The notes beneath the pieces are model-generated. The model saw nothing but the letters and a program-made list of their open reading frames with translations, ran no database searches and was not told the origin of the DNA. Made by a program: the position numbers and the translations under genes. This document shows, piece after piece, positions 5,461-30,223 of a stretch of 64,000 nt of DNA; position 1 is the stretch's first letter, and every line of letters starts with the position of its first letter. This stretch comes from Antitrichia curtipendula (Eukaryota > Streptophyta > Bryopsida > Hypnales > Leucodontaceae), in assembly GCA_951230915.1 (NCBI GenBank), contig OX579637.1, positions 27,590,001-27,654,000 on the forward strand. The letters are read 5' to 3'.

Positions 5461-5461
5461 T

Positions 5462-5970: not shown

Positions 5971-6281
5971 GTTTCCTGTGAACTTTTGTAGCATTGCAGA
6001 GTGGGGTGCACATTTACTCGACGACTAAGAATAACGTTGAATCTCACATGCATTAGGCACTGTCCAACGATCAGTCATCTGGAGTGTTCCAAATGTAAAA
6101 ATAGGTCACCGCAGGTGGAGTGGTTCATAACCTAGTCGTAGAATTCTGAGTCGATTGGAATTAGCGATCGATTAGCGATGCATAAAGCATGCTCGCAGTC
6201 AGTCATCTGGAGTGCTCCAGCTCACTGAAGAGGCTAGGTGTAGTTGATAGTCACCAACACATCTAACTAGCTTTTGGTTGA

Positions 6282-7110: not shown

Positions 7111-8867
7111 GTGTGAACTCCCAAATTGTCACTTGGGACTCGTAGAAATATTTTTTTGGAAATTTGCAATTTAATGTTAAGAAAAATATACAAAAAGCCA
7201 TATAAAGAGTGTAGAACCAAAATAGGGTTGTAACATATCCATTATAGTATTTGGTCTAGATTTGTATTTAGACTTAGAATCCCACCAAACCGGGCCCTAA
7301 AATAGGTAAAAAGAATGAAACAATTAGATTTGTAGGGTTCAAGTCACATAGGCCCAAAAGGGCTAAATCCCACCATGAAGGTGGCAATTCATGGCTAAGT
7401 CGATCCGAGGGATCCACAACGAGGCCACTAGGTCGGGTCCTAGAGTTAGGTTTAGAAATTCCTCAAACCCCGATTGTTAGCATGCAAGAGCCACGGACGC
7501 AAGACCAGGCCCGTGGAGGAATCTACAGCCCAAGGATGGTGTCTTAGGGTAAATCCCATGCCAGGAGTCCAACGACAAAATCGATTCGCCAAGATTCCTC
7601 TATCTACAAAAGATTCCCGCACCATCGATAAACTCAAGGAAATGGCCAATTCATCTCCACTGACCAATTATGCTAGGTACGGAAACGCACCTGCACATCT
7701 TTCATGTGACCCCATGAGAGGTCCTGTGAAAAATCCCGTCACCTTCCGACTTGCAGAAGAACCTTTTGCGGGTAGTCAACCCTAGTAACTTCCAACGGGA
7801 ATTTCATGGAAATTACCCAGGTTGCCATAAAATCTCACTAAAAATTAGACTAGCTTGTTTTATGTTAATAATGCACTCCGTGAAGTTTCGCAACATTCCG
7901 ATAGCAGCAAGTACCCGAACCGGCGAGATTCCTCGAGAATTAATCACGTGGCGAGGTCCCCGACGCGTTGATCGGCATCCCGGGACCATACGATGGCAAA
8001 ATGAAGTCAACCAAGAGTCTTTTCCGACTCCCTCACACCTACCGGAGATCCTAAGCTATTTACATTTCTCAAAATAGGAAACCCCCAAGATCTAGGATTT
8101 TACCACGGTTTAGTTTTAAAGCTAAATTAACCTACAATGTTTTTTGTCCTCGGTACGGGGGGTAGAGGGTCTTGGACTAAAAACGGGGATCTGGAGCCAA
8201 TGGCGCAATCCGTTTGACGATTGGAGTAAAACTCCAAAAGTTAGGAGGTTGGTCCAGCGTAGATAGGTAAAAGTAGTTTTTTAGGGATTAGGATGAAAAT
8301 CTTTGAAGATGAGGATGAAAATCCAAGTTGATAAGGTTACTTTAGAGCTCTTGAGGGGGAGGTGGGGCCTTGGAAACCTATTTAAGGTCCCCATTTTTCT
8401 CTCAAGAACACCCCCAATTCTTGTTTGGGTCTGTGGATCCAATTTATGTTGGGATTTTTGGCGTTTTAGCCAAGAAACCTCTACGGTGTTTTTGGAGCAC
8501 TTTTGGCTCCTTTTGTCGTTATATTTCAAGCTTTGAATGTCCTTGGGGGTCCTTCTACCTTGTCTTGTACACACTTTGTGTGTGTTTGTGTATACTCTTG
8601 TTGTTATTCGAAAGTCTTTCTATCTTTGGTCTAACCTTGTATCCTTGTTGTGAGTTGAACGGGTCTCTCCTATACTTGTGTGACTTTGTATGCCTTGTAC
8701 TAATCCTAAAGTCACCCCCCACCATACCTTGGCGAAACCGCTTTGGGGAGCCTTTAGTATATGATATTTTACCCGTGATCATTGACCTTGTGTACATGTG
8801 TGCCCCCATAGTGAGTCCTAACCAGAGTTGTCTTTTCCGTTGTTGGTTGAGAGTGGGCCCCACCCCC

Positions 8868-9060
8868 CGGGGAGCGGCGAAGCTTTGAACCTGTAACCAG
8901 TCCCTGTCCTAAAGTACGTGTTAAAAACAAGCCTTAGACGGCGGAGCTTTGAACGCAGGGGTATCGTAAGTCCTAAAGTTGGTGTTAAAACCAATTCTAC
9001 GGCGAAGCTTTGAACTCTTATGTACGTTCGTTCCAAAGTCTAGAGTCCGAGACATTCTCG
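8868..9060 (+). repeat. about 63-bp tandem repeat, three degenerate copies
   Basis: The word CGGCGAAGCTTTGAAC (or CGGCGGAGCTTTGAAC) occurs at about 8875, 8939 and 9000. Between copies there is CCTAAAGT followed by GTGTTAAAA. The unit is GC-richer than its surroundings. No function is apparent. Confidence 0.65.
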
Positions 9061-9239
9061 GAAAAGTCCAAGGTTTAGCGTCCGAGATTAAGTCTAAGTT
9101 TAAGAGTCATCCCACCCCTTGTGAGCCGGCATCCGTAAAACAAGAAACTACACCAAAAATCGGAGAGAGTTTACCAAAAATCCAATTTAGAATTGCTTGG
9201 GTGGGTTCCCTTAAGGAACCCAAAAAAAACAGATTCAGT

Positions 9240-9560
9240 TGCTAGGGGGTCGGGACAGGTTGCTAGGGGTCCAGCAATCGCTGGGGAGTCGGGGTGAGTC
9301 GTTGGGGAGTTAGAAAGCAGTCGCTGGGGTCTGGCAGGTCGCAAGGGAGTCGGGAGCAGTCACTAGGGAGTCGGGAAGGTCGCTAGGGGTTCCAACAGGT
9401 CGTAAGGGGAGTCGGGAAGGTCGCTGGGGGTTCCAGCAGGTCGCAAGGGGAGTCGGGGTGAGTCGCTGGGGAGTCGGGACAATCGCTGGGGGGTCTGGGC
9501 AGGTCGCAAGGGAGGTCTGGGCAAGTCGCTGGGGGTCGGGAGCAGTCGCTAGGGATCTGG
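9240..9560 (+). repeat. G-rich minisatellite (about 20-bp unit)
   Basis: Many variants of GTCGCTGGGGAGTCGGGA and GTCGCAAGGGGAGTCGGGA follow each other, interleaved with GGGTTCCAGCAG. The run is strongly G-rich on the plus strand with clusters of GGG/GGGG, so quadruplex formation is possible. It lies inside the suspected insertion. Confidence 0.75.
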
Positions 9561-10302
9561 GCAGCGTTGGTCCAGGGAGTCCAGGGCTTGGGTGAAGACT
9601 TGGGAGAGAAAAGAAAGTTGGAATTAGTGGGGATTAGGGGGAAGTTAAGGGGTTGAAATCAAGGAGAAAAAAGAAAGGAGAATAGGGGAAAGGAGAAAGA
9701 AAGGATAAGTCGCACTTCCATACCTGCATCAAACAACTCTCAACTCTCACCACAAACACAATGGAGGGAGGTTAGTGAGTCATAGAATTAAATAAAAGAA
9801 GGGGGAGAGAGACGATAAATAGTGCCCTAGGCTTAGCTAAATAGGTGTTAGAAAGGAAATCTCAAGTATTTGTAGTGACCATTAGGAGGTAGGATTAGGA
9901 TGACACGAAGACAAGGTTGTGTAAGAGGTTAGGAGGGATATTAAAATTTCTTGGGGTTTGAATCTATAGTTGTAAGACACCCCATGAAAGCTTAGGTAGA
10001 ATAGTGTTAGTGTAGAAAGAGAGAAAGGGAAAGAAAAGGAGAAGGAAAAAAGGAGGAAGGGAAAGAAAGAGGTTAGATCACACGGGATCCACAATTTTTA
10101 TAACATAAGCGGTAAACTTGGGGAAAAATTCCCACGACCCAAAGACCACCATGGAGTATGGAAATGGGCGTGCGGATGCGGACGAGCGCATTTCCGACAC
10201 CAGTAGTGACAAGGTAAGTCCTTGAATCAAAACTTGGTGCTTCTCTTTATTAGCATTGATTTTTCCCTTAATTAGCCGTTCAAGTGAATAGTGACTTAGG
10301 AT

Positions 10303-10470
10303 AAGTCAGGAGTAAAAATCTAGAGTTAAATATTAGGAGTAAAAATTTGGAGTTACATTTAGGAGTAAAAATTTGGAGTTACATTTAGGAGTAAAAATTT
10401 GGAGTTAAATATTAGGAGTAAAAATTTGGAGTTAAATTTAGGAGTAAAAATCTAGAGTTATATTTAAAAG
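10303..10470 (+). repeat. 26-29-bp tandem repeat, about six copies
   Basis: The unit TTAGGAGTAAAAATTTGGAG followed by TTAMATT is repeated about six times with small length changes. It lies in what may be the first intron after the donor near 10213. Confidence 0.8.
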
Positions 10471-10789
10471 TTAGGAATTAGAGGAAAAGATTAAACTTAG
10501 GGTTAGCCGTAGGGTTGAAACTTCCGAGAGAAGTGTCAAACTTCCAAAAATAGTCTTCAACACTCATAGAAGGAACGTAAAGGTTCCCCCCTCACATAGT
10601 TAGGGACGTTAGAAATGACGCCAATTACCTAGCCAACCCTATACATAGGATAGACAGTTAGGGAGTTAGGAATTACCAATCACCTTTGCTCATCACAGTC
10701 AGCTTATTAGTTACCCATGCAATTCTAGTAGTATTCGCTGCCATCCACGACACTCAGAAAACGTTAGCACAAAAAGATCCATTGTTTGG

Positions 10790-13611
10790 AAGGCACAGTG
10801 GACCGCGCTCACAACACCCCCCTATATTTAAAAGGTGGATAAAGGCATAGAACCTGGTCGGTGTTTGCCCGATTACCGAGGGTGGGTAATCTTGCGCCCT
10901 CAGTTTTGGCATTGAGGATACCCAATTACTTGGTATGATGAACAGGGCTCGCCTGAAAACTGACTTTAACGTTGACTGGAGAGTCATTACAGTGCTTCCT
11001 ATAAAAATCGGGCCATACGGCGCAGAAGGGAGGGCAACGTATTTTGATACCTGTCCAAAGCTGGAATCCATCACAAAACAAACCTACTACTTTATTATTG
11101 GGGGACAACACACAGTGGAGGCCTACAAGAAACTTGTCGATAACGGAGAAATTCCTGAATCTGATGTTCATGAAGCCTCTTGCTTTAAAATCATCCCAAT
11201 CTTTGCGCCGCAAAGCAAATTCTCAAATGTGATGCACCTCGCCCGAGCTCTAAACCAGAACGTTGCTGGTGAATAGAAGGAGCAATCATTTCTCACGCAG
11301 CTACTTACCGCGAGAATCAAATGGAGGGAGATGGGAAGTCCACAACCAGCGTATGGCGGCCGACCACACACTCCTGCGTATAATGTACGTTTTTTCTTCT
11401 CTATATTTTTTCTCTATCATAAAATATTGTTAGAAATAGATATCACGTTACAACCATATAGATTACTCCTGATGGTCGAGTCTGTGAGTCCGTGATGGTT
11501 TCAAATGTCAATCCATCGTTGCTTTCAGCTGGAGTGATCTAGATGGTATTCATTGCTTCTGCTCGTGGCATTATAGTCTTCGGGATTATAGTTTCTAAAC
11601 AGGTCATCTGGTTCACTCCAGCTGCTAGTTTTGGTTTTCTCTAATGTCGAACAATAACATAGATGTAAAACTAAATCTGTATCATTATGCATTCAGGAGT
11701 TTGTTCCACTGATCTCATTTATTTTCACCTCCGTCAAAGGGACCGACACAAGTGAAACAAAAATCCCGTTGTTGTTTCTGGAGGATGACGCTGACGTAGA
11801 GAAGTGGATAAAGATTGAGAGGGAGTATGTGCAATACATTCTTCCGGGCAATGAGGACAAATTACCCGATCCAGCAAAGAAAAGGCGGAACCGCCTAACA
11901 CTATTTGATTTTAAGACTCTATACGGGTTGCGGGTGGAGGATATCAACTTCCTTGCGGATCGGGTGCACAATAAGGAGATAACTGTGAAAAGCTCGAAGG
12001 CCAAGCAAAAAGGCGGTGGCCCGACACTGGAGACCCTACCGGAAGTTGGCGCTAGAGAACAATGCATCCAAGCCATGAAGAATGAGATGATGCTTCATTA
12101 TCGGCAGTACCATCTTCCCAGCAAGAAGCCGGTTTACATTCCATACCCCGATTCTGAGTTCAAAGACTTTGCTACTGAGATGAAGTTTGGACGTCCCGAA
12201 TTACAGCTTTGGGTGGACAGAGCCATGGCAATGGATGCAGGGAAGATTTGGCTTGAAGATCGGGCGAAGGGCTTAAACAAGACGTCCAACCCCGCAGACT
12301 GTCCAAAATTTGTGCATGACATGTGGGATGCATTCATCACAGCGAAAGCCCAAGTTGCGGTGGCAGAGGCAATGGAGAAAGGATTTGCAAAGAAGTACCT
12401 ATCAAAAATCATGGACGATAATATGTAGAACATCAGTGGCATTCTAATGCAACAGGATGTTGTAGCATGGCGTGGTGAAGGGATGAGACACTTGTACATC
12501 TGGTATTTGTTTGAAGCCACGGCTACGGGACCACGGGCAAAGTTTTTGGAGGACCGAAATCTGCGACAAGTTTTTGATGCTCTGGAAAGCGTGGAGAAGA
12601 AGGACACCTCTGTTCGATCACCAGCGATTCTTATGACGGATGCTTAAGGATTCCATGAAGTAGTGGCTCATTTGTACAAACGGAAGTTGGAGATCGCGCA
12701 CAAAATTTGGGACTGGCACGTGGTTCACTACATTGCTGGACGTGATCACGGCTTTTCAAAAATTGCCACTGGAAGCGAATTCGTGATGTTTGTGATTTTT
12801 TGCTTTGAATACAATGAATCGGAAAGCGCACAGAGCCGCTTCAACTACTACTTCCCCTCTCAACAAGTATACAGTTCTATATACAATTTTGAGGCAATCC
12901 CGGCTGACGTAAACAATTCATGGAGGCGTCGTGGTGTGCACTATTTGAGCGCAAATTCTGCACTTGTATTATTCGAAGGGTTAATACAAGATTACATGGT
13001 GCTTGTTAACGTGAACGGGGGACCAGAGATCACTCATCTGGGAATCGTAAGACCAAACGATGGAAATTGGTTGTTATTGTTGTTTTATGTTGTAGTCTTA
13101 GTCATCTTGTATTCTTAGTTATCTTCTCAATTAACTGGCAATCGTTGTACTGTACCAGTGGGGAAGGGTGAAGGTATTGGAAGTATTTAATTCTGCGGAG
13201 GCGGAGAAAGCTGGGATAATTACTGCCAGACAAATGCAGGAGCAATTTGCAGTCAACGTTCGGCAAGAACAACCGCCCGATATTGAGGAACTCTCAGACA
13301 ATGATACGGAAACTCCAGAGAACACCAGGGAACAATACTTTGAAAAGAACGATGATGAGCCTCCAAAGTGCAAGTCACCCGAGGTGAGTGTTGCATGACC
13401 TTCATGCATCTGAATTGCTCCAGTTGTTCGTTTAGAGAGTGTTTGTGGACCTAGTCTCATATTCAAGACATTGTTATTGCAGGTGTCCTCTCCTCCACCA
13501 TCATTGCTGCCTAAAAAGTTGAAGGATCCATCCTCTAAGAAAACTGCCAAAAATCCACTTTCCGCAGTCACGACAGAGGAAACAAGCAAGCAGAAGAAGA
13601 GGAAATTCTGA
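10790..13611 (+). pseudogene. ParB/DNA-methylase-like gene, copy A (main part)
   Basis: Exons by splice signals: about 10790-11384, 11697-13046, 13159-13383 and 13483-13611, all joined in phase 0. The first carries YYFIIGGQHTVEAYKKL, which fits the ParB-superfamily pattern (hydrophobic strand, GxH, then Ala). A long helical middle follows. A strand-glycine motif (VLVNVNGGPEITHLGI) lies just before the second intron, at the same place as FAGSKFTCAAM in copy B, where class N4/N6 DNA methylases have motif I. The last exons are acidic and then lysine-rich (KKLKDPSSKK, KQKKRKF), possibly nuclear. In-frame stops: TAG 10848, TAA 10887, TAG 11274, TAG 12426, TAA 12645. No DPPY-like catalytic motif was seen, so activity is doubtful even for the ancestor. 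ParB and methylase assignments rest on short motifs. Confidence 0.5.
11527..11623. repeat. inverted pair of CTGGAG palindromes inside intron 1 of copy A
   Basis: Intron 1 (11385-11696) contains CAGCTGGAGTGATCTAGATG at 11526-11545 and CATCTGGTTCACTCCAGCTG at 11604-11623, which match each other in inverse orientation. A further member (CATCTGAATTGCTCCAG) lies in the third intron near 13403, and CATCTGGGGCGCTCCAGATG lies at 13776-13795 downstream. Confidence 0.75.
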
Positions 13612-13751
13612 AGCCTTGGCTTGATGGTCTTTTAAAGTCCAACGAAGCTGTGCAGGTTTATGTCAAAGCCAACCCACTTTCCAGGTGCCAACAGCCGGTG
13701 GATCCAATGGGTAGTGTAGGGTTCCAGGTTCTGAAGGGTGTAAAGTATTAA
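13602..13751 (+). pseudogene. HAD phosphatase-like C-terminal fragment (piece 1)
   Basis: In a frame overlapping the end of copy A, 49 codons read EILKPWLDGLLKSNEAVQVY and onward to a TAA at 13749. The word LKPWLDGLLKSNEAV resembles LKPWLQNLFQSGETV near the end of the HAD-like gene at 22350-23005. This suggests that only the tail of a HAD gene survives here. It could instead be the true end of copy A after a frameshift. Confidence 0.35.
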
Positions 13752-14314
13752 GACTGTGCAATGTTAGGCTGCGATCATCTGGGGCGCTCCAGATGATCTC
13801 TTTTCAGGGTTTTTTTAATCCCAAGACACAGTATTGTCATAGATAGGACTAGGTGCAGACTCTCTGACATTTTGTATCAATCTATAACTGTTGTAAATGT
13901 CTTTCTTTAAAAACTACCTTACAACTATTTTATATATTAGGATGACGGCGATAATGTTGTGTTTGTGTCATTTTTAAAATTTAATTGGCAACTCAAATGC
14001 AAGTTCCTCAGTTACATGGGTGGAATTTGGAATATTAGACAAGAGCAATGATGAATGTCAACATGTAATATTTCAAATTACAGATTTTGTCAGAAATTTT
14101 AACAACATTGCACACTATCGTCAGAATTTGGGTTAGGACAATAAGGAAAATGTACTGGTAGTGTGCTCTCTTTGGTGAACATTGAATGTGTGAATTTTAT
14201 GCTTTGTAATGGACCCTTCTAATCAGTGGTATTTGGTAATCTACACCAGGAGCACTCTTGTTGAATATTGGTCGTCCGTTCACAATTGACCATGTGTTGT
14301 TACGTGGGTCTTTG
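13752..14314. other. spacer with one palindrome, no gene seen
   Basis: Apart from the palindrome at 13776-13795, I see AT-rich sequence with no supported coding frame. It ends in GTGGGTCTTTGCAG, a plausible splice acceptor for the HAD-like piece that follows. Confidence 0.5.
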
Positions 14315-14660
14315 CAGAGAGTGGTGATTCTGGTATTGACAGGTGTTTTGCACTGAGGCTGCTGTCGTGGAAATTCAACAAAACAAATAGATTGAGGCCT
14401 TTCAGGATTTAGTTGGTTTTATGTTGTCGAAGACTTCCGTTAGTATCTGGTCGAACATGACCACTTCTAAATTGGAGGAGTTCCTTCCACGGATACTTCC
14501 AAGGAATTTTATTGCGATGTTATTTCTTATTAAAGGTTGTGACTTACCAGGCAGTTTAGACAAGTACCCCAATAGAGGCAACTTCTTCTCTTTAGTAAAA
14601 TGGCATTGCGCAACTTGCTTAGAAATCACACCCTTGTATTCTTTGATGTGGATCCCCTAA
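14315..14660 (+). pseudogene. HAD/FCP1-like phosphatase remnant (piece 2)
   Basis: Directly after the acceptor the frame reads RVVILVLTGVL, the position of HAD motif I, but with Val where the nucleophilic Asp should be. After frameshifts, VSIWSNMTTSKLEEFLP (from about 14430) fits motif II of FCP1/NIF-type phosphatases (hydrophobic strand, then WS or WT). A third part reads LVFFDVDPLTQKVSIIPPIV in yet another frame near 14632-14690. The same three parts, in the same order, occur at 24454-24888. The copy cannot encode a whole domain. Enzymatic loss is likely both from decay and from the missing Asp. Confidence 0.5.
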
Positions 14661-14854
14661 CCCAGAAGGTTTCTATAATACCTCCAATTGTACATATTAG
14701 GGACACCCAACCAGCAGATTTGAAATAGAATACCTTAAGAATTGCAAACAATGCTTTATTTGTATTCAGTTCCTATTTTTTTATACATCTAAATGAAAAA
14801 AATGGTGGTTCCACCTTCTTTCTTTATGATACAACTATCAGTGTGTGTGATGTT

Positions 14855-15279
14855 GAGGGGAGGACATTAGAACGTCTCTAGACGTCCAATTCCCATTCCC
14901 AAGTTTAGTGTTAGAATTGTCAAATGAATATGTAATGTAGAGGGGAGGACATCAGAACGTCTCCAGATGTCCAATTCCCATTTTCAAGTTCAGTGTTAGA
15001 ATTGTCAAATGAATATGTAATGTAGAGGGGAGGACATCAGAATGTCTCTAGACGTCCAATTCCCGTTCCCAAGTTCAGTGTTAGAATTGTCAAATGAATA
15101 TGTAATGTAGAGGGGAGGACACTAGAACGTCTCCAGACATCCTATTCTCATTCCCAGGTTCAGTGTTGGAGTTGTCAAATGAATGTGTAATGTAGAGGGG
15201 AGGACATCAGAACGTCTCAAGACGTCCAATTCTTAAATTCAGAGTTAGAAATGTCAATTACTAATGCTATGGGTTGACA
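14855..15279 (+). repeat. 85-bp tandem repeat, five copies, with GACGTC-type palindromes
   Basis: GAGGGGAGGAC begins at 14855, 14940, 15025, 15110 and 15195: exactly 85 bp each time. Every unit contains GAACGTCTCCAGACGTCC (variants with AGACG or AAGACG) and ends TCAAATGAATATGTAATGTA. A degenerate sixth copy runs to about 15320 with ATCAGATGATCTCTAAATCT. Confidence 0.9.
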
Positions 15280-15592
15280 ATCATCAGATGATCTCTAAAT
15301 CTCCAATTCCCAACTTCAGTGTTGGAATTCCTCCATTTTATGATGAATGTGGAGGACTTAGCCAATCACGTGGAGATGGAAGAATGTAAACTCTCATTGC
15401 TTACACCAAATTGAGGACCTCCTGTACAAACATCACGATAGTTCCAGATAATTTTGCTAACTATATGCAAGTAACCATTGTCTACATGTTTCATTGCCCA
15501 AATATGAAATATTTTCCTTTGTACTGGCACTGGCACTACGCTCTGACCTCACCCAATATAGATAGTAATCAGCTGGAGTGATTTTCCAAAAC

Positions 15593-15637
15593 AGTCCAGA
15601 ATTCCTCCCAAAGTCCAAATATAGTTAAATGCGGCAT
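15593..15637 (+). promoter_or_regulatory. conserved leader upstream of copy B (also at 25464)
   Basis: The segment with CCCAAAGTCCAAATATAGTT and AAATGCGGCAT closely matches CCCAAAGTCCAAAAGTAGTT with AAATAGGGCAT at 25464-25510. Both lie after a HAD-like remnant and a palindrome-rich spacer. Position suggests a promoter or transcript start for a downstream gene, but no functional evidence is visible. Confidence 0.4.
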
Positions 15638-16937
15638 ATACCCTTCAGGAACATCATATGCTTTGCCGTGAAATACAAGGAAATCGAACCATACTTCCCA
15701 ATATCTTACAACAAAGAAATCAAGGAAGTTGTCCATGACCTGGAGACAATAATCAAAATTCACTGTAAGACTGCACAAACAGGAATACCTGAGGATGATC
15801 AATATCACTTCACCCTGGTCCTAGACTCCTCGAAAGTAGAATTCAACGTCTCTCATTTCATAAGGTCCCTAGAACCAACAAACTACAGAACCGAGATACC
15901 GGAACTGGAGAAGAAAGTTGATCTAGGCTTTTTCAAGATGACAAGTGGGAGGATTGTGACTGGGAAGAGCTTGTGCGCGAAACTGCGGATTCTCTTTGTC
16001 GACTTTGTTGTTCTGAAGGCCACACTCCAAGCAAAGCAAAAGGACATGACTCCACGGTCGGTCTCCACCGAGAGTCTGAGCACGGTGGAAGGACAAGGGT
16101 CAGTGGGAATTCCAGGAATGCAGCAGACTTGCGGTACAAGAAGAAGCAAGCAAGCGAGTGTAGCTCTTTCTGGCCGAAAGAAAAGCAACCTGGCATCACT
16201 GTTAGAAATCGTCCCATTCGACAAGGAAGCAAGCGCATTTGCAGTTGGGGAGCAAAGCTTTGTCTCTGCGGTTATTGATGTATCGGTGGCGTATGACTCT
16301 AAGCGGAAACATGATTATGACGCTTCCACGGCTGCTTGCAAGGGGTACTGGAAAAACTGCACAGTCGCATACGTCTTTGACAAGGAAGAAAAGAAACCAA
16401 TATCTATTGACCAACTCAGTGAGGCACCTGCACACCTTAACATTCGAAGCCATGAGCAAAGATTGGCCGAGGACGTCATGACGTTTCTATAGGAGATGCC
16501 TGACAAGTCCACGAAACAAACACTATGTGTCATGCCCGTGGATCAGACAGAAAAACCAACACCTGAATAGTGGGCACTCTTGAAGGACAAGAAGTTCTAC
16601 ATAATTAACGATCAGCACAGTGTAACGGCAAGCAAGCTGATGGTGGCAAAGGAACTGGACAAAGAGATTGGGAAGCACTTTCGGCAGTGGGAGTATTATG
16701 TGGTCTGGTCATCGGATGGTGAAAAGCTCCGAGCCATCTCCGCGTACTACAACCGAGTGAATCACTTCATTGCCATGAAGTCGTTGTGGTCAATTAATAT
16801 TCTCGGAGCAAGGAAAGTATGGGAAATCATGGGCAGACCCAGAAATCCCAAAGAAGCCGCACCGGTTGGAAAGAAGTTCAACGCCAGGCAGAACGCGGAC
16901 AACAAAGTCAACAAGACAATGTTCAAGGTATGTAGAT

Positions 16938-17023
16938 CAGATCGGCTCGACCTGAAACGCACCACTTATAGAATCTGTACTGAGCACATGTCGGACAGCT
17001 GCAAATATGGTCGACTCGACTTG
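16938..17023. repeat. copy-B palindrome motif in intron 1
   Basis: Intron 1 of copy B (16928-17067) holds CAGATCGGCTCGACCTG at 16938-16954 and the related ATGGTCGACTCGACTTG at 17007-17023. The first is the exact reverse complement of 18513-18529 in intron 2. Confidence 0.8.
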
Positions 17024-18470
17024 AATCATGCTTATTGACAAGTCTGTGATGCTTCTCCCTTGTGCAGGAATTCTCCTTGGCAATGTACAAGCGCTTTGCC
17101 ATGCTTGATGTCGTTAAGGCCCAGAAGGCAGCGAAAGGCAAAGACGTGGAGGAAAAGCTCAAGATTGTAAACGAGCTCAAGATTATTACCGCTCTGGATG
17201 AAGTCTTCAGTCTCTAGAGCGAAGTGATTTTGAGCGCAACGCATGGGGAGCTCATGGACCCAGACACCCGCATGAAGCTCAACGTGAAACCAAGTTAGAA
17301 GCCAAAGAACGGAAACCTGACACACGAATTCTTCAAGTGGCTTGGCAATCTCTTGTTGTATGACTTGACAAAGCTGGCCAAGCACATCCTGCATCAGGAG
17401 CCAGGAAGGAAGAACAAAAAGTATCCGAAGGTGACAATAAAACTCATCACGAGGGTGCTCAAGAGCTGCTACACATGCAAGGAGTGGGTCGAGCGCCGGA
17501 AGCGCAAATACCTTGTGAAGCGTGCATTGCACCTCGTGGACCCGACACTGAGACTAATGAACTCTATAGACAAGTTGAACGTGGAGAAGTGGAGTCAGTT
17601 CAAGAAAAGTCGAAACTACACGAGCGCCACGATGAGCGTCCTTCTCAAGCAAACTGGAGACGATTACTAGGCAGAAGCCAAGCAGCCGAGAATGAAGAAC
17701 AACTCTGTGGAGGAAATGTCACCGTACGCGGCCCAATTCTTCAAGGTGTTTCTTGAGCGTAGAAATAACTTCGTGCCGCCGATGTCTGTCTTTCACTACC
17801 GACCGTATGACATAAATAAGAAGAGCACCAGAATTGGCCGAAGGGGTCAATGACTGCCGACCACTTGAAGAACATGGCGTTCGGTGTATGGGACATGAGG
17901 TATACACCTTTCGTCCTGAACAAGGAGAAGTGCACGCCTTCCAATCTGTTCTTCACAGCTGCGTTGAAATCGTTCCAGGAGAAAGGTCAACCGCACCTTG
18001 AGGACATTCAGAATTGGCTTCTGATAGCTTCAGATCTAACTGAGCACACGCAGCTTCTTCACTACATTGAGTCAAATGATGTGCAAAAGGAATACAAGAT
18101 GACTTTCTCGGATTACATGCCATCTAGTCAAGAGAAGATGGGCGACTACTCCGTCACCAACAAGAAGGCGGTCGAGAAAATTTATCTGATGTTTCTGCAG
18201 AGCCCGAGCAACAGAAACTTTGTCGACCTGAGGGCATCGTATGACGCTCCTAATACGGATACATACACAAAGCCGCGGCTATACAATGAACTCGGATTCA
18301 GAATCAAAAACACAGAGCTGCGGATGGAGTTCTATATCCGTATTTTGAGAAAGTTTTGCATACCCGGGGTGAACGTTCTGTCCCTCTTTGCTGGCTCCAA
18401 ATTCACATGTGCTGCAATGGTAAGTGTAACGATCATTCTTGTACATCAGGCACATAGTCTATTCGTCAAT

Positions 18471-18529
18471 CAGGTCGAGACAACCTTATGTATACTTCTT
18501 CTGATTGTTGTTCAGGTCGAGCCGATCTG
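18471..18529. repeat. copy-B palindrome motif in intron 2
   Basis: Intron 2 (18420-18544) contains CAGGTCGAGA at 18471-18480 and CAGGTCGAGCCGATCTG at 18513-18529. Related words occur in spacers at about 19659, 20998 and 21063. None was seen inside exons. Confidence 0.8.
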
Positions 18530-19811
18530 TATTGTGCTCGTGAGCAAGTGACTGATTTCCTGACTCTCCAACAAATGAGCGGACTCACTGTGTTTGCAGT
18601 GGGTGATTTGGATGAATCCAACGACTGGACAACAATTGTGAGTGCGGCCATGATTTTTGACAAGAGTGAATTTCTACCTTCCGGCTATTTTGTTGATGAG
18701 TCCTCATTGGTCAGGGACACCGTCATCGTCGAAGAGGAAGGGGAAGGCGGTGGCAGAAGTCAGTTGGACACCTGCCAGACAGTTGTAGCCTGCAGCAAAA
18801 GAGAATATAGACATCTCATCAGACAGTGAGCACAAGCTGAACGACAATGTCGACGACGAGGACGTACCGACTAAGTAGACGACACCAACAGTTTTCATTT
18901 CACAAAGCATCCAGGGATCGTCGGCTTCATCGGGTCAGCTCGTAGGTCCGCAACCGTTGCCCTCGCCCTCGCCTATAGCGTGCGAGAAGAAGAGGCAGAG
19001 GAAGAATGAAGAGGACGACATCAGAGAGGCGGAGATTCAACAACTCAGGAGGGACAGGATCAATGACCGCAGGTCAAATATGGAAATGTTTGCAGAGAAT
19101 GCGAGGCAAATGGAGGAGTTGCGGAAGATGATCTTGGGGCAACAACAGCAGTCTGCATGCCAATTTCAGACCATCATGCATCATGTGGGTGCAATCCAAC
19201 CTCTGGCGTCTTTGCAGCCGGCGGGTCAGCAGCTGCTCCTCTAGGGTCCAACAGGAGGATCCAATAACAGTGGATCCTCAAGTTTATTGGTGGAGCCTGG
19301 AGTACCCACCATGTTTGCACCCCCCCCTTTTGTTGCTGCAACTCCAACTAGAGAATCTGTGGTTCCACCCCCACCTCCTCCTGCATTTGCTTGTCCTAAA
19401 ACACCAGCACCACCTGTAGAAGTGGCGGACCCATTGGATGTATGTGACGAGGTTGTTGGTTTCCAGCCTACAAGTATTATTATTTTTGATGTCGTCGCGG
19501 TCCAGGAACAGAACACTGCCAATGTAGATGAAAAGAGTGCTCCAGTGGTCAATCTAGATCCACTTGCAAGTTAATTTGCAAATATCGCTCGATGTCATTT
19601 GTATAGTGTTAGCTCGTCTCAAGCTGATTTGTAGCATAGTTTGTATATGGATGTAGATCTTCAGGTCGAAAGACAATCATTTTTTGGCAGAAGACTTACA
19701 GTGGACATAACCACTGAGTTTTCATTTTGAAAATCAATTTTGTACTTACTTCATTTTGATATGATGAAATATACCAATGTCTCACGGATTTCTTTCTTGA
19801 CAATTCCTGAA

Positions 19812-20002
19812 CTGCAAAGGCACTTGTCTTGATTCCACCAACGTCTCTAGAGCGTATTCCTGTTGCGGATAATCCACATACAAGCGCTGCCGCCGTGGAC
19901 AATCGTGGACCTCTAGGTGCTGACACCTCTATTCCGGACGTGGAGCTCTTGGAAATTCCATTGGTGGAACCCGCTCAACAACCGAATTCTCCAAAGGAAC
20001 AG
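19812..20002 (+). pseudogene. possible exon upstream of HAD-like piece 3
   Basis: An open frame reads IPPTSLERIPVADNPHTSAA, continues through ELLEIPLVEPAQQPNSPKEQ, and ends at CAG|GTAATT. It is low-complexity, proline- and serine-rich, like the stretch before the HAD domain at 21350. I take it as a disordered N-terminal exon of the following HAD-like gene. Evidence is limited to openness and the donor. Confidence 0.3.
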
Positions 20003-20172
20003 GTAATTCTGCATTCTTGTCGGTTTCATTTTCAGGGGCTTGGTGACTTTATTTTATTTTTTTATTTGGACAGTACGCCGTCCTCTTTAGTTCTTCCTTG
20101 ATGTCCAGATTGTGTCGAAATGTGTCAGTGCAGCGTAGTAACTGGCTGCACATTTGTACGTTTGATAGCAGA

Positions 20173-20966
20173 GACCGGATCCTCCATGTCCTCGAGGAAA
20201 GTCAAAGGAGGTAGACCTTCCATTGACGTCCAGGGTGTCGGAGAAGAGGCTCAACGTTGTCCTGAACCTAAATGGAATTTTGTGTGTCTGTGAAGATGCG
20301 AAGTCCAAGGGCTCGTGCTTTCATGCCCGTGATGCGACGCAGCCGCACTCGGCAACCATTCCAACGTTAGTGGGACCAAAGGTAGTCTGGGTCCGCCCAA
20401 ATTGCGCTGAGTTCCTCCGTGAGTTAGGACGCATAGCATTCGTTTTCGTTTGGAGCTCCATGAAGAAGTCCACCACAGAAGAGGTTTGCTTGTACCTATT
20501 TGAGGGTCAGGAGTATCCCATGTTCGTTCTCGGATAGGACTCGTGCACGAAACTAAAGTACAAAGATGATTTCGGGTGCATCGGGAATTTTAGTGAATCG
20601 GGCACAAGTAAGGATCTCTTCCTCAAAAACATGAGTACCTTGTTCAAAGGATTCCGAGGGAAATTCAACCATGAAAATACCATTGCAGTTGATGACAGCC
20701 TAGTGAAGCACGTGATGAACAAGACCAAGAATGTCATTCTCCTGGACTCTTGGAATTACAAGGGAAATGGTGCAAAGGACACGTTTCTGCTCGACGTCTT
20801 GTTGCCGTGGTTCAAGCCTCTGACAAACGCTCGAGACATAGGGCTGAAGTCATTCCGGGAGACTAACAAAGAAAAGATTGGGAGGAGGATGCTCTGCGAC
20901 GAACGAAGTCGTCGCACGTACAACAACATTTTGAATGTAGTGCGAGTTTCAGAGAGTTTACGATAG
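20173..20966 (+). pseudogene. HAD/FCP1-like phosphatase (piece 3)
   Basis: The frame enters as PDPPCPRGKSKEVDLP, then VVLNLNGILC (motif I, with Asn for both Asp of DxDG), then RPNCAEFLRELGRIAFVFVW followed by SS (motif II region). After one TAG at 20535 come ENTIAVDDSLVKHVM and NVILLDSW (motif IV-like: hydrophobic strand plus acidic residues). The end is LLPWFKPLTNARDIG and a basic helix. This order fits the FCP1/NIF branch of the HAD superfamily, which dephosphorylates proteins such as the RNA polymerase II tail. Loss of the nucleophile argues against catalysis. Length, about 250 codons, is near that of a single NIF domain. Confidence 0.6.
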
Positions 20967-21349
20967 GATAGTGCTCTGTATGTATCGATAGTGTAGTTCA
21001 GGTTGGCCCGATCTATTAGGCACATAATTAAAGAGATGTACATTCCTGTGCGCTTTAGCTCGCATCGACCTGATAGTTGAGTCAATATCTCACGTAATAA
21101 CTCATGTACTCATAATGCTTTGTATGCACATTTTCTCGTAAAATAAAATATTCTCATATGGTTTTTGAATATGACTTCTTGTTTTGGTTTCAAGTCTTGT
21201 TCATCTTACTTGTTAAGCGGTCTGCTGATTCGCCTAGGATATTTGAGGTTGCACTCGTTTATGGGATTTGCTCTGTTGATCTCAAATGATAATGTTTCTT
21301 ACTGTTTGTTGTTCTCAAAATTTGCATTTCTCTCCGTCTCCGTTCTTAG

Positions 21350-21953
21350 TTGCCAGCCTCACTTGTACGGCGTCGGCCGATTCCATCCTAGACTATGGCC
21401 AAACCGCAATTCTGAGCACGGGGAACTTCCTTTGCTCGGCGGCAACAGCAAATTCCACGATGGATTATTCCGCTAGACCTCTTGAGGATGGTGTGGTAGA
21501 CAGTCCTCCGAGTAGAACTCCTCATCTGCCTAAATCATGCTCCCCTTCTCCATTAAAGTCTAGAGGTGTTTTCACTTCGCAGATGTCATTGTCGGCCTCC
21601 GACAGAGCACCATAGAGGAAATTGTACGGAAATGCCATGTCACCAGTATTAGGTTGTCACCAGTGTTAGAAGTGCCACGTGAATTGTGCAAAGAGAAGGT
21701 TGCTGTCAATTTTGACTTGCCTTCATTTCCTCGGCCACGACCTCTTTCCCTGGGAGTAAGAAAGACCAAAACGCACAGCGGAGTGGCGAGCAAGAATTGC
21801 GTTTCTCCGTTTTTTGACCGGTGGGATCAAAAGTTCTTAGAACTACAGAGGCAACAAGCACAACGGGAGTACAAGCAAGCTAGTAATGGATATAGTCGTG
21901 GGCCAGAGATTAGGAAGGCCATGGAGAAGCTCAAGAATAAGTCGCACATATAG
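21350..21953 (+). pseudogene. disordered exon, probably N-terminal part of the next HAD-like gene
   Basis: After a CGTTCTTAG acceptor, a serine/proline-rich frame (DSPPSRTPHLPKSCSPSPLK) runs to a TAG at 21613. A second frame from about 21600 reads on through FDLPSFPRPRPLSLGVRKTK and WDQKFLELQRQQAQREYKQA to a TAG at 21951. The last part is a charged helix. No domain is recognised. It may be a separate small gene. The HAD domain at 22350 starts after another acceptor, which is why I link them. Confidence 0.35.
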
Positions 21954-22349
21954 GGGATGTTCATATTGTAGAGTCATAGTCTAGAGGTACACAAGCTATC
22001 TGCACATATTACATACATTGCCATGCTGCAGTGAATCACACTCGTTGTAATTACCAACACTGTGAAAAAAATTTACGAGATGTTTACATCGGATAATATC
22101 ACATGTTTGTACAAAACAATCAAGTGTAATTGGGAAGACACAATTGTTTGAATTTTGTGTCCCCTTTTTAATACTATATAGGTGGCCATGTACTTGTTAA
22201 TGGTATTAGTACGCTGATACTACTATATTTTGATGCAATGTATTCCAATTACTTCGTCTCAATTCCTCCCAATTCAGTGGAATCCTCTCAATTTAATGAA
22301 TATAACGTTTTAATTGATTCTAACTACATGGTTCCCTTGTCTTTTGCAG

Positions 22350-23005
22350 AGCTTGGAATGCCTTCCTTGCCTGTGGTGAAGTCATCAGGAGAGGTAGTTT
22401 TCAGACGGTACTCTGTGGTCCTTGACCTCAATGGGCTTCTTCTTCATAGATCTTTTGATGATCTTAATCGACGCAAGAGTGTACCCCGTCCGGGTGTTGT
22501 AGCGTTCCTTGACTAGTTGCGTAGACATGCAGACGTTGCGTTCTAGAGTAACGCTTCGAGCCGGAATGTGAGTTCTCTATTGGATACCCTGCTGCAACCC
22601 ACCTCATTTAAAGCAGCAGACGTCGTTGTTTTCTTGCAGGAAGAATGCACGGAGTTGTCCTTTAAAGACCACTGCAATCCGTATAAGCCCTACTTTCTGA
22701 AGGATCTGACCACCTTTGCCAGTATCGCGGAATTGGATTCCTTAGACAATGTTCTTCTAATTGATGACAATCCGATTAAGAACCTCCTAAATGATCCATG
22801 CACCACTGTTCACCCGAAAACATGGGCCGGTGATACAAGGGACTACTTCTTGGAGGGGAAGTTGAAGCCATGGCTTCAAAATCTGTTTCAGTCAGGCGAG
22901 ACTGTCGTCTTCTACGTCTTAAACCATCTACTTCTGGGTGGTCAGAGGTCAGAGAATAAGTTTTCTAAGCTGGCAAAGAGTGTTCTGGGTGGATTTCCTA
23001 AATAG
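22350..23005 (+). pseudogene. HAD/FCP1-like phosphatase (piece 4, best preserved)
   Basis: After CTTTTGCAG the frame is continuous to TAG at 23003 except for two TAG codons (22514, 22544). It shows VVLDLNGLLLHR (motif I with Asp nucleophile and Asn second position), RPGVVAFLD and then VAF*SNASS (motif II; the stop stands where relatives in this window have Trp, as in VSIWSNM). The remainder holds FKDHCNPYKPYFLKDL (lysine region), NVLLIDDNPIKNLL (motif IV) and LKPWLQNLFQSGETV. Domain order and length fit an FCP1/NIF-type HAD phosphatase. Two nonsense changes inactivate it, but the rest is intact, so its loss looks recent compared with its neighbours. Confidence 0.7.
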
Positions 23006-23035
23006 GACTATTTTTTCATACTTGGTAGGCATTAT

Positions 23036-25275
23036 CAGGAGGTCTCACGATGATATCTAGAACTTGTATATAAGAAAAGATAGTGGGTCTCACGATTTTT
23101 GTAGAACATATTGTAATCATAGTAAACGTAACTTCTGTAAATGACTTCGACGCTTATGTTTATAATAGACAAATTGGGTGACCTTGTAAATGTACTAGTA
23201 ATTTTCATAATAATGCAATCATCGTGATATCTCACGATGCTTTCAGCAACTTTAGTGTTGTTGTAGTCGAATACCAAACTATTCTTGTTTTCTCTTTAAA
23301 GTACTCTATGTTCCGTCCCTTCTGTGAAATACAGTTTTCTAATGACTATGATCGATATGATAGGAATTTCTAGCAAATTCGTTAATGTGGTTGTTCATTT
23401 CTTAGTATGGCCTTCTGTTTTCCATGATCCTGTAATATGTAAATGATAATCCTTTAGGCAAACTCAGTTCGTTAAATTTGCGTAGTTTTAGGATTTCTCC
23501 GAAGAGATGTAGATGTCTGATTTGTCTCACAAATGCTCTCCGTTTATAAGTCCTTCACTATGTTTTTGACAGATACTTCAGTTACAATCTCGCGATTAGA
23601 TTACCCCTCTACCTCATTTGAAAAAATTTAAATTGTCTTTGAATGTGGTAAGTGGGGGCCCTTAACCCTCCCGCTCATGACTCTTCATCAGGAGATCTCA
23701 CGTTACATGATTCCTCATACATGTCATATCTTTATTCTCAATGCCTATAGTATCATTGTACTGTTTCTCATTTCTTTCGCTTAGAATTTGTTCTTACAAT
23801 TTATTTTTCTTTCTAATTCATTCGTTCTTCAGTAGTATGGACACCAATTCAATTCTCTTCTACATAAACTCTTTGGATGTTATTTTGTAATAAGCTCGTC
23901 CATTACTTCATCTAGAGATCTCCGGATGGTCAAAAATTCTGCTTTTCGAGTATGGGAGTATTATTCTTTTATAGTTTGCATCACGGGATTTCACGATACG
24001 AATCTTCATGTTTTACCTCGGTCCGGATTTTATTTCTCTATTTTTACCACCACATGTGGAGGTAGTGCTTCTTGTTTGTAGTTCATTTTAGTTTATGAGT
24101 GATCTACATTCTCCATAAGCAGTTTACTTAGAATGGAAGCCCTATTCTTTTCGATCATCTCAGAATTACTTTAAACAGATGGGAACTAAATTACCCAAGT
24201 CTCACATTTTTTCCCAAAGCTTCTGGGGGTTTTCGGAAGTACAAATTCTTTTCTGCGTTCTTCTTTATAGTTTTATTAGTAAATTGGAATGCTTGATTAG
24301 TGCAGTTCATGGAACATTGATCCCTTGTTCGGGTATGCTAGAAACGGTTTCATAGGATATATTCCATCAGGAGATCTCTCGATAATTAAGGTCATGTTTC
24401 CTTTCATTATAGGTATTGTGTCCTTGACTGTAGGTGGGTGTTGTTCTCTGCAGGCGGTGGTGATCTTGGTACTCACGGGTGCTCTCTGCAGTGACGGTGC
24501 TCCTTTGGATCTCCAAATTAATGTCAAGACATTATCACGCTTCGAGGCATTCATTAGTCTTCTGTTGACAACGACTTCTGTTTTCCTCTGGTCTAATATG
24601 CATTGGTTGTCATTGAAAGAGATTCTTGCATGTTTTCTTCCACAAAAACTTATTTTGAGGTTATGGCGGATAATTTGTGGATGTGATTTACATTGCAAGT
24701 CGCAATTGCATCATCCTCATCGTCAACATGTATTGAAGACCCTCGTTAGTGATCCTCATGCCAGGGAGGTACTTAAGAATCGAACAGTTCATTTCTTTGA
24801 TATAGATCCTATAAACATGCAGATGCATTTAATCCCCTCGATCGTACATGTTAGAGATGACCCCAATAACTTGTACATTAGATTCTGAAATGCAAGCTAT
24901 TTTCATATTCATTTCAAAGGCGCACGCCTAAGTATGCTTTGGTGTATCTTTATGAATGAATTGTGGTGATTTCACCTTACTTTACTATACAAATGTCTCT
25001 ATTTTGCAAAATCTCTCTATTTGCATGCATTGAACATGTCATCCTATATGTCTGTTTAATGCTATGGGAATTTCATTTGGAGATCTCTTGATCTCCAATT
25101 CTCAATTTTAGTGATGGATTTCAAACCTCCATTTTGTTGTGGATCTCAATGAATCTAACCAAATAAACATGTAGACATGTTAGCATTTGAATTCACATTA
25201 CTTACACATGGTCTGCAATTTTCAGAAGTAAATTTGTGGACAAATATTCCTCTACATCAGGAAATCTCTAGATGA
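23036..25275. repeat. dispersed GGAGATCTCACGAT-type motifs
   Basis: Variants occur at 23037 (GGAGGTCTCACGATGATATC), 23083, 23221-23238 (ATCGTGATATCTCACGAT, arms ATCGTGA/TCACGAT), 23691 (GGAGATCTCACG), 23909 (CATCTAGAGATCTCCGGATG), 24366 (CATCAGGAGATCTCTCGAT), 25076 (GGAGATCTCTTGATCTCC) and 25257. They are confined to spacers and the segment before the HAD-like piece at 24454. AT-rich spacer without genes lies between them (23006-24324). Confidence 0.65.
24454..24888 (+). pseudogene. HAD/FCP1-like phosphatase remnant (piece 5)
   Basis: Following GTTCTCTGCAG the frame is open for 144 codons to a stop at 24886. It has VVILVLTGALC at motif I (Asp replaced by Val), SVFLWSNMHWLSLKEIL at motif II, and VHFFDIDPINMQMHLIPSIV near the end. 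The order equals the piece at 14315. It is uninterrupted but short of a full domain, and it lacks the nucleophile. It may be a divergent non-catalytic branch or a truncated gene that starts upstream (an open run in the same frame begins at 24325). Confidence 0.5.
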
Positions 25276-25463
25276 TGGATTTGTTTCAATGAGTAAAACA
25301 GCAAAAAACAAAATATAAACGCTTACAATGCTAAAGCACGTTCTGTCATATGGCTTTCAATATTCATATGTGCTCTATTACCTATTATCCTAGCTACTTT
25401 CAGCATCATGATGGTGTTTTTTTCCATAATGTAGGTTGTAATCATCATGTAATATTTTCTAAA

Positions 25464-25510
25464 AAGTCCGAAATTGGGCCCAAAGTCCAAAAGTAGTTAA
25501 ATAGGGCATT
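25464..25510 (+). promoter_or_regulatory. conserved leader, second copy
   Basis: Matches 15593-15637 (see there). On the plus strand an open frame starts at 25559 (MDNILMEVTVYEVPHML), but the minus strand there also has a protein-like frame belonging to copy C. Which strand is real just here is unresolved. Confidence 0.35.
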
Positions 25511-25604
25511 CAAGACTTTTGGATAGTCTTTGGTTCACTCGGTTGTTCTTCCAACAAAATGGACAACATACTCATGGAAGTCACTGTCTATGAAGTGCCT
25601 CACA

Positions 25605-27340
25605 TGCTTGAAGAACTCTCTTTCAACAAGAAATTCTTTGGATTAAAGGATTTTCCATCCCTGGATTGTTTTTCGGTACAAGGATCAATCAAGGCCCTCT
25701 ACTTGTGGAGATTGTTGAATTCCTTCCATAACTTGTACATTGCATTGGACAAAGTCATGATCCTAATTTCATTTTTGATGATTGACACCAACTTTACCTT
25801 CACAACCTCTCCTGTCGGGTTGATGCTTTGAAGCCTCGTCATGATATCGTCAACAAATTTCTACAAGGATCATGATTTACAAACGTTAGTCTTATAAAAT
25901 CAATTTGAATAGATCATATGATAGTATCCTCGACTTGAGAATAAACATAGAAACTGAAAATGAATTTCATCTCTAGTAAAATTTGATGATTCAATTACAA
26001 ATGTACGCTGTTAATCTCGTCCAAAACCAAGAAGTTATCTACGACTCGAGGATACTAGCTGAGTACTTACTGCATATGCCATGTTGTCATCCACTACACC
26101 ATTTTTTTGAATGGATGCTTTGTTCTTGCATCCACTTCAACGCTTGTGCGTCTGCCATACAATCTGGCACTACAAAATCTGGTTACTCCAAGTAAGTTGG
26201 CTATGCACAAGGTAATTTGTTGCATTGTACCACTTAGAAATTGTTGTAAGCTTGGCTGCGTCCAAGCTCCATACAATTGTTGCATCCCAAGTTTGGAGTT
26301 CCACCTTTTGTTCCTCACAACAACCTCCAAATTGCAGTGTCTTGGCTGCATTGATGCTAAGCTAGTTGTTGATAATGTAGAATTTGACAGCTTTTATTTC
26401 TTTCCACTTTTCACAATGTTTTTACAAGAATAAACTATTCTCAACCACTCATGTCGAGTAAATCAATTGGCATTGCTTGATTTCAAACATGTTTTTTAAC
26501 TCCTGTACCATGTTTTGGACAATCTTGGGCTCCAACTTGCGGATGATGTATTTTGCCCACATTGGTTTATGGACACTAGAAAGGTGAGGTTGTTAAACAT
26601 GAAGTAGTCTTTGTGCTTCTCTTTGAAGTCTTTCTGGTACACTGCTACCACTTCAAATTCTTGAATTGGCTACAAGTCACCTCTCTACCCTATCTGAATA
26701 CTAGTCAGAGCAGATCTAGAACTTCCAACTGTTGTTAGTCGGCTTTCTGTTGTAGGCTTCTGGTGCTTCTTGGCAGGTTCAATGCCTCCAGAGTCATTAG
26801 CCCTCTTTTTTTGAGGTTGCACATGCACTTGCCCTTGACCACTACTCTAGCTACCTCCACCACTCTAGATCTTGCGCAGCCTCCTGACATTGAGATGGAG
26901 CCATCAACAGACTCTTGCCATTGTTGGGGTCTACCTTGACCACAATGAGTTTTGTTTTCTGCATGCTTTTGCAACCTACAAAAGATGGTGTGGATTCTCC
27001 TCGTCATTGTTGCCGCATTTTTCTTCAACCATGGACTGTAGGTGAGGTTGAAGTTGTTTGCTATCTCGTCCAAATCCAAAATTTGAAGCAAGGCCACGAG
27101 TTCTTCAAAATCAAACACGCCTTTGCCGTCATCTTTGTGAATTACAATGGGGTGCGTGTGTAGAGTTTTCTGTCCATTGTTGTCAAGTGCTTCTAGTGTG
27201 ACTACTATGGACTGACCCTGGTGGTGTTCCATGAGAGCTACTTTCTCATTGAGGTTCAAATTCAAAAATCCTTTACAGTCTCTTATTCCATAGCGCAAAT
27301 ACACGCAGTTCTTGGCCCAGTTTATATCGAATGTCCACAA
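25605..27340 (-). pseudogene. ParB/methylase-like gene, copy C (5' part only)
   Basis: On the minus strand 27340-26735 is open (VTLEALDNNGQKTLHTHPIV, then KGVFDFEELVALLQILDL). Further on, 26400-26340 reads AVKFYIINN*LSINAAK, matching KFYIINDQHSVTASK of copy B, with TAG at 26362-26364 exactly where copies A and B have Gln. IVWSLDAAKLTTISKWYNAT then matches VVWSSDGEKLRAISAYYN. A phase-matched donor (GTAAGTACTC at 26070-26061) and acceptor (ending at 25861) define an intron of 210 bp at the position seen in A and B. The next exon reads FVDDIMTRLQSINPTGEVVK. Other stops are TAG, TGA and TAA codons. The methylase-like part is missing, so this copy is truncated and inverted relative to A and B. Confidence 0.55.
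25924..26056. repeat. inverted motif pair in the intron of copy C
   Basis: Plus-strand TATCCTCGACTTGAGAATA (25926-25944) and GACTCGAGGATAC (26043-26055) lie in the copy C intron and are inverted relatives of each other. They resemble the palindrome TATCCTTGAGTCAAGGATA that forms the repeat at 52617-52932. Confidence 0.6.
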
Positions 27341-30006: not shown

Positions 30007-30223
30007 GACTTCCGCCTATTCCAAATTATTTTTCCTTGCTGATTTTGCCTCTCATGACTTGGTTGGAGTACAAACATTGCTCTAGAGCAAAGTCCAAAAA
30101 CAGTGTGTTGTGTTGGCACTTGTTGTGAGGGCAACAAGTGTTGTTTCCACATCACATTTCAAACAAAATACTAATCTTCTTGTTTTCTTTGCAGGAGTAG
30201 GTAGAAGAGAGCCGATAAGAGCA

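Follow-up and report, generated by a model that had tools for sequence, protein, structure and literature searches.

The 64,000-nt window analysed here, C5:27590001-27654000 within the 400-Mb, 303-contig genome of the moss Antitrichia curtipendula, contains several decayed copies (A, B and C) of one repeated multigene element. The family is highly repeated in the genome and mobile-looking, and its copies carry palindromes in the 5' intron (as an array in A), in the intron that follows the ParB exon and in introns farther along the gene, as well as in spacers. We consider it probable that this large family encodes a ParB-fold protein, that the palindromes are the protein's own targets, and that the protein, once loaded there, may keep the element unsilenced. 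Self-recognition sites changing with the ParB-like protein had been one of the options offered by the first-pass annotation, and this option is the best supported, by the predicted fold in the B clan, by half-sites that follow the protein tree, and by the same layout in two loci of another record (L129 and L130); binding is inferred from these lines. In every branch examined, introns and spacers carry a palindrome peculiar to that branch, which is very rare in exons; elements thus seem to tag their own DNA for the protein they encode.

The motif counts in the window, set against shuffles, confirmed the overall observation of copy-specific palindromes in introns. The A motif, CATCTGGATCACTCCAGATG, has 13 matches at ≤3 mismatches (12 places, with 13776 matching on both strands) compared with 0.00 in 100 shuffles, and the B motif has five compared with 0.09 expected. 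The inverted pair reported for copy A is real (11526-11545 and 11605-11624, each with two mismatches to CATCTGGATCACTCCAGATG), and the site reported near 13403 is present at 13407 but weak, with four mismatches. Nine further A sites in intron 1 (5482, 5518, 5598, 5634, 5750, 5902, 5938, 6076 and 6204), most of which belong to a 116-bp tandem array, had gone unreported, as had the A-type site at 13776. In copy B, the sites at 16938, 17007, 18471 and 18513 were found as described and one at 20999 was added. The inverted pair of copy C (25922-25944 and 26035-26057) is also present and is 78% complementary; this is the least tested copy, its search pattern having been derived from the pair's own place. 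The motifs had been said to avoid exons, which held for copies A and B: none of the five B matches is exonic, and in gene A, at ≤3 mismatches, 11 places lie in 1,495 nt of intron (nine in intron 1, two in intron 2) and none in 3,156 nt of exon (binomial p = 4e-6), with one more place past the last exon. The motifs had further been described as homogeneous within a copy and its spacers. This is correct for copy B and for introns 1 and 2 of copy A but not for the 3' spacer of A, where an 85-bp array (14846-15232) is of another type, and other A-clan copies likewise mix two site types.

Genome-wide, the B motif has 311 matches at ≤2 mismatches compared with 7 for a reversed control. The distance test covered 97 of these 311 matches, namely those listed with ≤1 mismatch (three further listed rows had 2 mismatches), together with the 62 B-like genes at the head of a list of 150 and the first 49 listed NIF places. 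Eighty-seven of the 97 listed B-motif places lie ≤8 kb from one of the 62 listed B-subfamily ParB copies (random mean 1.1, maximum 6 in 500 draws). An even spread of the motif across the genome, which the first-pass annotation had named as contrary to its proposal, was therefore not observed. Most of the places within 2 kb of a B copy (74 of 97) are at offsets near -1780, -1670, -1440, +358 and +1934, and these recurrent offsets correspond to the 5' region and to the pair of introns present in window copy B. At four B copies read directly (L011, L014, L015 and L021), a GCAG acceptor-like end that opens the coding exon is preceded by the -1440 site together with one or two others; in the 4.6 kb upstream of one B copy (L131), we found no B site and no convincing gene. 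For the A clan, two palindromes have 436 and 527 genome sites compared with 0 in controls. Among the listed sites, 29 of 50 and 14 of 50 lie ≤20 kb from one of 150 listed A-clan copies (random means 0.7, maxima 5 and 4), and the low 14 of 50 may reflect comparison with only the listed A-clan copies, of which there are at least 150.

Two further observations concern the B subfamily. Three B-motif places (C6:34201240, C9:25225962 and C10:23844517) lie ~42-45 kb upstream of the nearest listed B gene at similar offsets, which hints at segmental copies or at a composite element of very large size. Separately, 37 of the 62 first-listed B-subfamily places are on contig C5, which makes up 9% of the genome (37.2 of 400.2 Mb); C5 may be a low-recombination chromosome, for example a sex chromosome.

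The palindromes of the A and B clans have distinct geometries. Translated genome searches with the A and B proteins gave at least 150 matches each (first-look candidates, 513 for A and 647 for B), and open frames several hundred codons long are common among the listed copies; in four of the A subfamily (L041, L054, L059 and L063), neither of the two exon parts examined contains a stop. Of 120 loci, 116 allowed the limits of the intron that follows the ParB exon to be set, and the other four (L035, L067, L069 and L098), from which no intron was obtained, were dropped. Hand-picked representatives, 12 from the A clan and 11 from the B clan, were used for the dyad test; of these, L039 and L070 come from neighbouring subfamilies of the same motif type. 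The A-clan introns (3,965 nt) contain 16 even 20-bp palindromes with ≥8 of 10 pairs, compared with a mean of 1.69 and a maximum of 7 in 200 dinucleotide shuffles, and the A-clan exons (9,458 nt) contain three. The B-clan introns (1,790 nt) contain no even 20-bp palindromes and seven odd 17-mers (≥7 of 8 pairs) compared with 0.72 in shuffles (maximum 4), and the B-clan exons (8,864 nt) contain four of the latter. When five dyad lengths were tried, 18 and 20 were enriched only in the A clan and 15, 17 and 19 only in the B clan, indicating that the two clans use dyads of different, fixed parity. Summarised from the sites, the A-clan types are CATCTGGATCACTCCAGATG, CATCCGGAGATCTCCGGATG, CATCGGGATATATCCCGATG, CAGCGGGAGTGGTCCCGCTG and CATCGTGGGATCCCACGATG, and the B-clan types are CAGGTCGnnnCGACCTG, TAGGTCGRGTCGACCTA, CAGCGCGACTCGAGCTG and TAGCGCGAGGCGCGCTA; the presumed target of the B-type ParB-like protein is TCAGGTCGASTCGACCTGA.

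The correlated change that the first-pass annotation had proposed to look for was observed in the A clan. When mapped on a protein tree with 20 A-clan members, the half-site label, set by hand and with L085 as a class of one, needs four changes for five classes, the minimum possible, compared with a mean of 12 for shuffled labels, in a kind of test that near-copies inflate. Three half-site classes are single supported clades. More telling is the likeness of sites that share an intron: under a frame-based site definition, the mean inner half-site distance is 1.91 within one intron compared with 3.02 between different subfamilies (permutation p = 0.0002; 23 sites, 8 copies), and introns of different subfamilies elsewhere share words of just 6-12 nt. 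In addition, three of four B-clan subfamilies show higher conservation at the sites than in the remaining intron sequence (0.943 vs 0.782, p = 0.020; 0.968 vs 0.888, p = 0.003; 0.966 vs 0.819, p = 0.046), the fourth having 0.953 vs 0.920 (p = 0.21).

This layout was also found in L129 and L130 (CADCWO010000269.1 and 243.1), whose genes are split and intron-bearing and encode relatives 33-34% identical to the query. L129 has eight TCAGCTCGASTCGAGCTGA sites in 2,224 non-coding nt and none in 3,988 exon nt, and L130 has seven in 1,697 non-coding nt and none in 4,764 exon nt, with exon limits placed by hand here as in gene A. A motif-blind scan returned the same places and added a single palindrome to each locus, in an exon of L129 and in non-coding sequence of L130. 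By eye, L130 also has a phosphatase-like open reading frame (ORF) downstream, and its half-site TCAGCTCGA is one base off TCAGGTCGA of window copy B. Because the two loci carry the same layout with their own palindrome, the layout exists in a further lineage, which most likely belongs to another organism. The two contigs are filed under a cyanobacterial metagenome-assembled genome yet encode intron-bearing, transposon-like genes; this bin is probably contaminated by a eukaryote.

In the B clan, the predicted structure of a gene B homologue has the ParB N-domain (ParB/Srx) fold, and profile comparison links the A clan to the B clan (96%, E 3e-9). No Pfam family or PDB sequence matched the ParB-like protein in scans of partial proteins from A (835 aa) and B (953 aa), and remote relatives can escape the curated ParB Pfam profiles. 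We call the protein ParB-like because no ParB Pfam match was found in these pieces. No relatives of it were found in viral contigs. Bacterial ParB proteins bind cytidine triphosphate through their GxRR signature. Our family shares with bacterial ParB, Noc and KorB the N-domain fold and palindromic candidate sites near the encoding gene, but differs from them in having GQHS or GQHT in place of that signature, in its intron-bearing eukaryotic genes and in that a helix-turn-helix (HTH) was not identified.

Among transposon systems, the VANC proteins of Arabidopsis are described as binding short motifs that lie in the introns and in the intergenic and terminal non-coding parts of the transposons encoding them, and as reversing silencing there (Hosaka 2017, PMC5735166), the targets being rapidly changing tandem repeats (PMC5735166). 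Our family resembles VANC/VANDAL (PMC5735166; Sasaki 2023, PMC10398659) in its element-encoded protein, in non-coding motifs that are absent from the tested exons, in the arrays, and in motifs that differ between related families together with the protein. Here, too, family-specific motifs lie in introns and other non-coding parts and are rare in exons. In contrast, VANC has DUF1985/DUF287 and a 9-bp YAGTATTAY motif (PMC5735166), while our family has a ParB fold and 17-20 bp palindromes, and a Pfam scan of the two partial proteins did not find DUF1985/DUF287. ParB proteins are loaded at palindromic parS sites, after which they spread (PMC10653881), and VirB, a member of the ParB family, counteracts silencing from a parS-like site that is likewise palindromic; however, it is a single regulator on a bacterial plasmid that counters H-NS, and the excerpt of the source describes no lineage-specific site sets (PMC10653881). 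The Sola1 accessory gene of Ectocarpus likewise places a ParB-like domain in a eukaryotic transposon, with proposed binding to its own element, but adds a DNA methyltransferase domain, and the excerpted account gives no target motif (PMC12477816). We found no methyltransferase domain in the two partial proteins. Judged by titles and abstract openings, the literature searched described no moss or plant transposon in which a ParB-like protein is paired with palindromes of its own element and nothing closer from algal transposons, and the Ectocarpus ParB-like and methyltransferase accessory gene is the nearest published relative found (PMC12477816).

These comparisons point to a possible way of working. 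Sites in introns and spacers would be free to change without harm to the coding sequence, and each lineage would have shifted to a new half-site while the dyad geometry was kept (an even 20 bp for A-clan sites and an odd 17-19 bp for B-clan sites). The palindromes would be bound by the element's own protein as a dimer, and the protein so loaded might, less certainly, keep its element transcribed or unsilenced, like VANC on VANDAL; by this analogy, a VANC-like mechanism on a ParB fold would fit. The B-clan ParB-like gene usually adjoins an FCP/NIF-like phosphatase. A more specific version, possible but doubtful in our view, is a self-marking ParB clamp of bacterial type that would load at lineage-specific, parS-like intron palindromes, spread and unsilence the element, with the phosphatase acting on the transcription machinery and a Tet-like oxygenase of the A clan originally removing methylcytosine. 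If this were true, palindromes and protein changing rapidly together would divide the family, within one genome, into numerous lineages blind to each other.

Several observations weigh against self-recognition. For the protein, A-clan fold prediction gave no usable model (predicted local distance difference test score, 33), the GxRR position reads GQHS or GQHT in alignments, and no DNA-binding part (HTH) was identified. No transposase was identified, with no Mutator-like element transposase among the scanned ORFs, in an element A that runs past the left window edge. For the sites, 13 listed B-motif places between -4.4 and -7.3 kb, and another 10 at greater distances, lack an explanation. Element A includes a second site type in the 14846-15232 array, and CATCAGGAGATCTCCGGATG-like sites lie ~5.7 kb downstream of the ParB exon in copies of the 53-55% group, which also includes copies with upstream CATCGTGGGATCCC sites; A-clan elements thus hold two site systems, and therefore one protein does not account for all sites. 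On the A-clan tree, the GTGG label is not one clade and has two changes, split by one long row (L079), and near-copies favour clustering of the labels. The first within-copy test, in which sites were defined more loosely by palindrome score alone (≥7 of 10), showed no excess (p = 0.21), so the likeness of same-intron sites depends on the definition; the looser one took in chance palindromes, and the frame-based one was devised after this result. Finally, sites of the young A subfamily are no better conserved than their intron (0.953 vs 0.968, p = 0.85).

Two candidate sources of the palindromes were ruled out: chance, by the shuffle controls for the window A and B motifs and for the clan-wide dyads, and insertions of miniature inverted-repeat transposable elements, by the sites at the same offset in many copies. 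Among the remaining explanations, it is unlikely that binding of the sites, by the ParB-like protein or by a transposase, serves mobility or maintenance (a transposition complex, pairing, segregation or tethering) and does not act against silencing. The high repetition of the family and the loading and spreading of ParB from palindromic parS (PMC10653881) are compatible with such a role. The array of the second site type also lies 0.4-0.8 kb from the right end of element A, as subterminal repeats would, and because of this closeness we raised mobility slightly and lowered self-recognition against silencing slightly. On the other hand, the intron-type sites are spread along the gene body, with none between 13.8 kb and the right end at 15637, and the mapped end is the right end of one element only. 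Capture by the element of sites for a host factor, an enhancer or a repressor, is improbable: the 5' intron placement would fit intronic enhancers as generally known, but a host factor gives no reason for lineage-specific half-sites in one genome that track the element's own protein.

We regard as quite improbable that the sites are functionless small insertions or tandem-repeat debris inherited by descent. The arrays are tandem duplications, introns of related copies are shared by descent and the A subfamily has no conservation excess, all of which would agree with hitch-hiking; however, the B-clan sites are more conserved than their introns in three of four subfamilies, same-intron sites share a half-site though other intron parts share only 6-12 nt words between subfamilies, and the layout recurs in L129 and L130. 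RNA hairpins that aid or regulate splicing of the element transcript, another option of the first-pass annotation, fit less well and are very improbable. Inverted pairs could fold in the transcript and most sites found are intronic, yet the dyad length is fixed per clan, nine sites lie within a single intron, sites occur also past the last exon and in 3' spacers, and the sites share sequence and not pairing alone.

Element A matches other copies from window base 1, the left window edge, to a sharp right end at 15637 (TAGTTAAATGCGGCAT, 15622-15637, plus strand) common to many genome copies. Gene A is on the plus strand. Its first coding exon (5158-5204) starts MGTRQGKETTPVWDN and is in frame with exon 2 across a GT-AG intron, the 1.08-kb 5' intron 1 with nine A-motif sites (5205-6287). 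Exon 2 consists of 6288-7106, with 89% aa identity to the L041 copy, and 10908-11384, which is the ParB-like domain (IIGGQHTVEAYKKL) with the profile link to the B clan and one in-frame TAG; the two parts are split by a 3.8-kb insert foreign to the element (7107-10907, strand not assigned), which begins TGTGAACTCCC and has short tandem arrays at 9236-9564 and 10308-10466. Intron 2 (11385-11697) contains the inverted A-motif pair and a decayed site at 11455 (four mismatches), exon 3 (11698-13383) is decayed, with stops and a frame change, and intron 3 (13384-13483) has the single degenerate site at 13407. The A-type palindrome past the last exon seen in the window is at 13776-13795 (both strands match, strand not assigned). 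Compared with the copy at C7:1855303, window copy A is without ~1.6 kb near 13604 (offset from the ParB match, 4,285 vs 2,668 nt). Downstream, also on the plus strand, are fA, a decayed second ORF of the element (14316-14700), and the 85-bp tandem array of the second site type, CATCAGAACGTCTCYAGACGTC (14846-15232). By eye, fA resembles an ORF at 24440-24888, for which no Pfam family was found (best E 0.18, chance level). The right-end type recurs at 25494-25509; at ≤3 mismatches, the window contains no inverted counterpart of the right-end sequence, whose three matches were reached in 31 of 100 shuffles.

On the minus strand, a decayed, frameshifted remnant of a Tet-like 2OG-Fe(II) oxygenase lies at about 2793-3180, in DNA common to A copies. 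The match is weak: two frames match adjacent parts of PF20515 (168-191, E 0.028; 188-211, E 0.0018) below the Pfam cutoff, as does the homologous piece in L132 (E 5e-4). This remnant is a hint for the anti-silencing step, and an intact Tet-like gene in the family would tie the family to cytosine demethylation.

Copy B, also on the plus strand, spans 15584 to about 19575 with its 5' end cut and is followed downstream by a NIF/FCP-like phosphatase ORF. Its 5'-truncated ParB-like exon (15584-16927; fold modelled on the homologue) is followed by an intron at 16928-17067 with B-motif sites at 16938-16954 and 17007-17023, and the next intron (18420-18599) has sites at 18471-18487 and 18513-18529. 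The phosphatase ORF of the B module (20240-20966; PF03031, E 9.7e-14) contains one in-frame TAG, and past it lie a B-motif site with three mismatches (20999-21015) and an inverted partial one (21057-21073), with no strand assigned. A second NIF/FCP-like phosphatase ORF is at 22390-23005 on the plus strand (PF03031, E 9.2e-15), and the spacer at 23033-25275 (strand not assigned) has four CATCAGGAGATCTCTCGATGA-type sites at ≤3 mismatches (23033, 23908, 24365 and 25255). Copy C, on the minus strand, has its site pair in a putative intron delimited by eye (25922-26057) and a ParB-like exon piece at 26104-26412, with 36% identity to gene B over 103 aa. Several in-frame stops in gene A, copy B and the phosphatase ORF are TAG, and at least one other, by eye, is TAA; the TAG stops could reflect cytosine decay in CHG context. 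At about 30200-32900, the window has ORFs that by eye resemble a hAT-type transposase.

To our knowledge, VANC is the one protein family through which transposons are known to counter silencing in a sequence-specific way. If the palindromes of this moss family are indeed targets through which its own ParB-like protein counters silencing, the family would represent a second anti-silencing system, on an unrelated fold, meaning that this solution arises repeatedly. The many protein and site pairs in one genome would then be a natural series in which changes of specificity could be read and tested.

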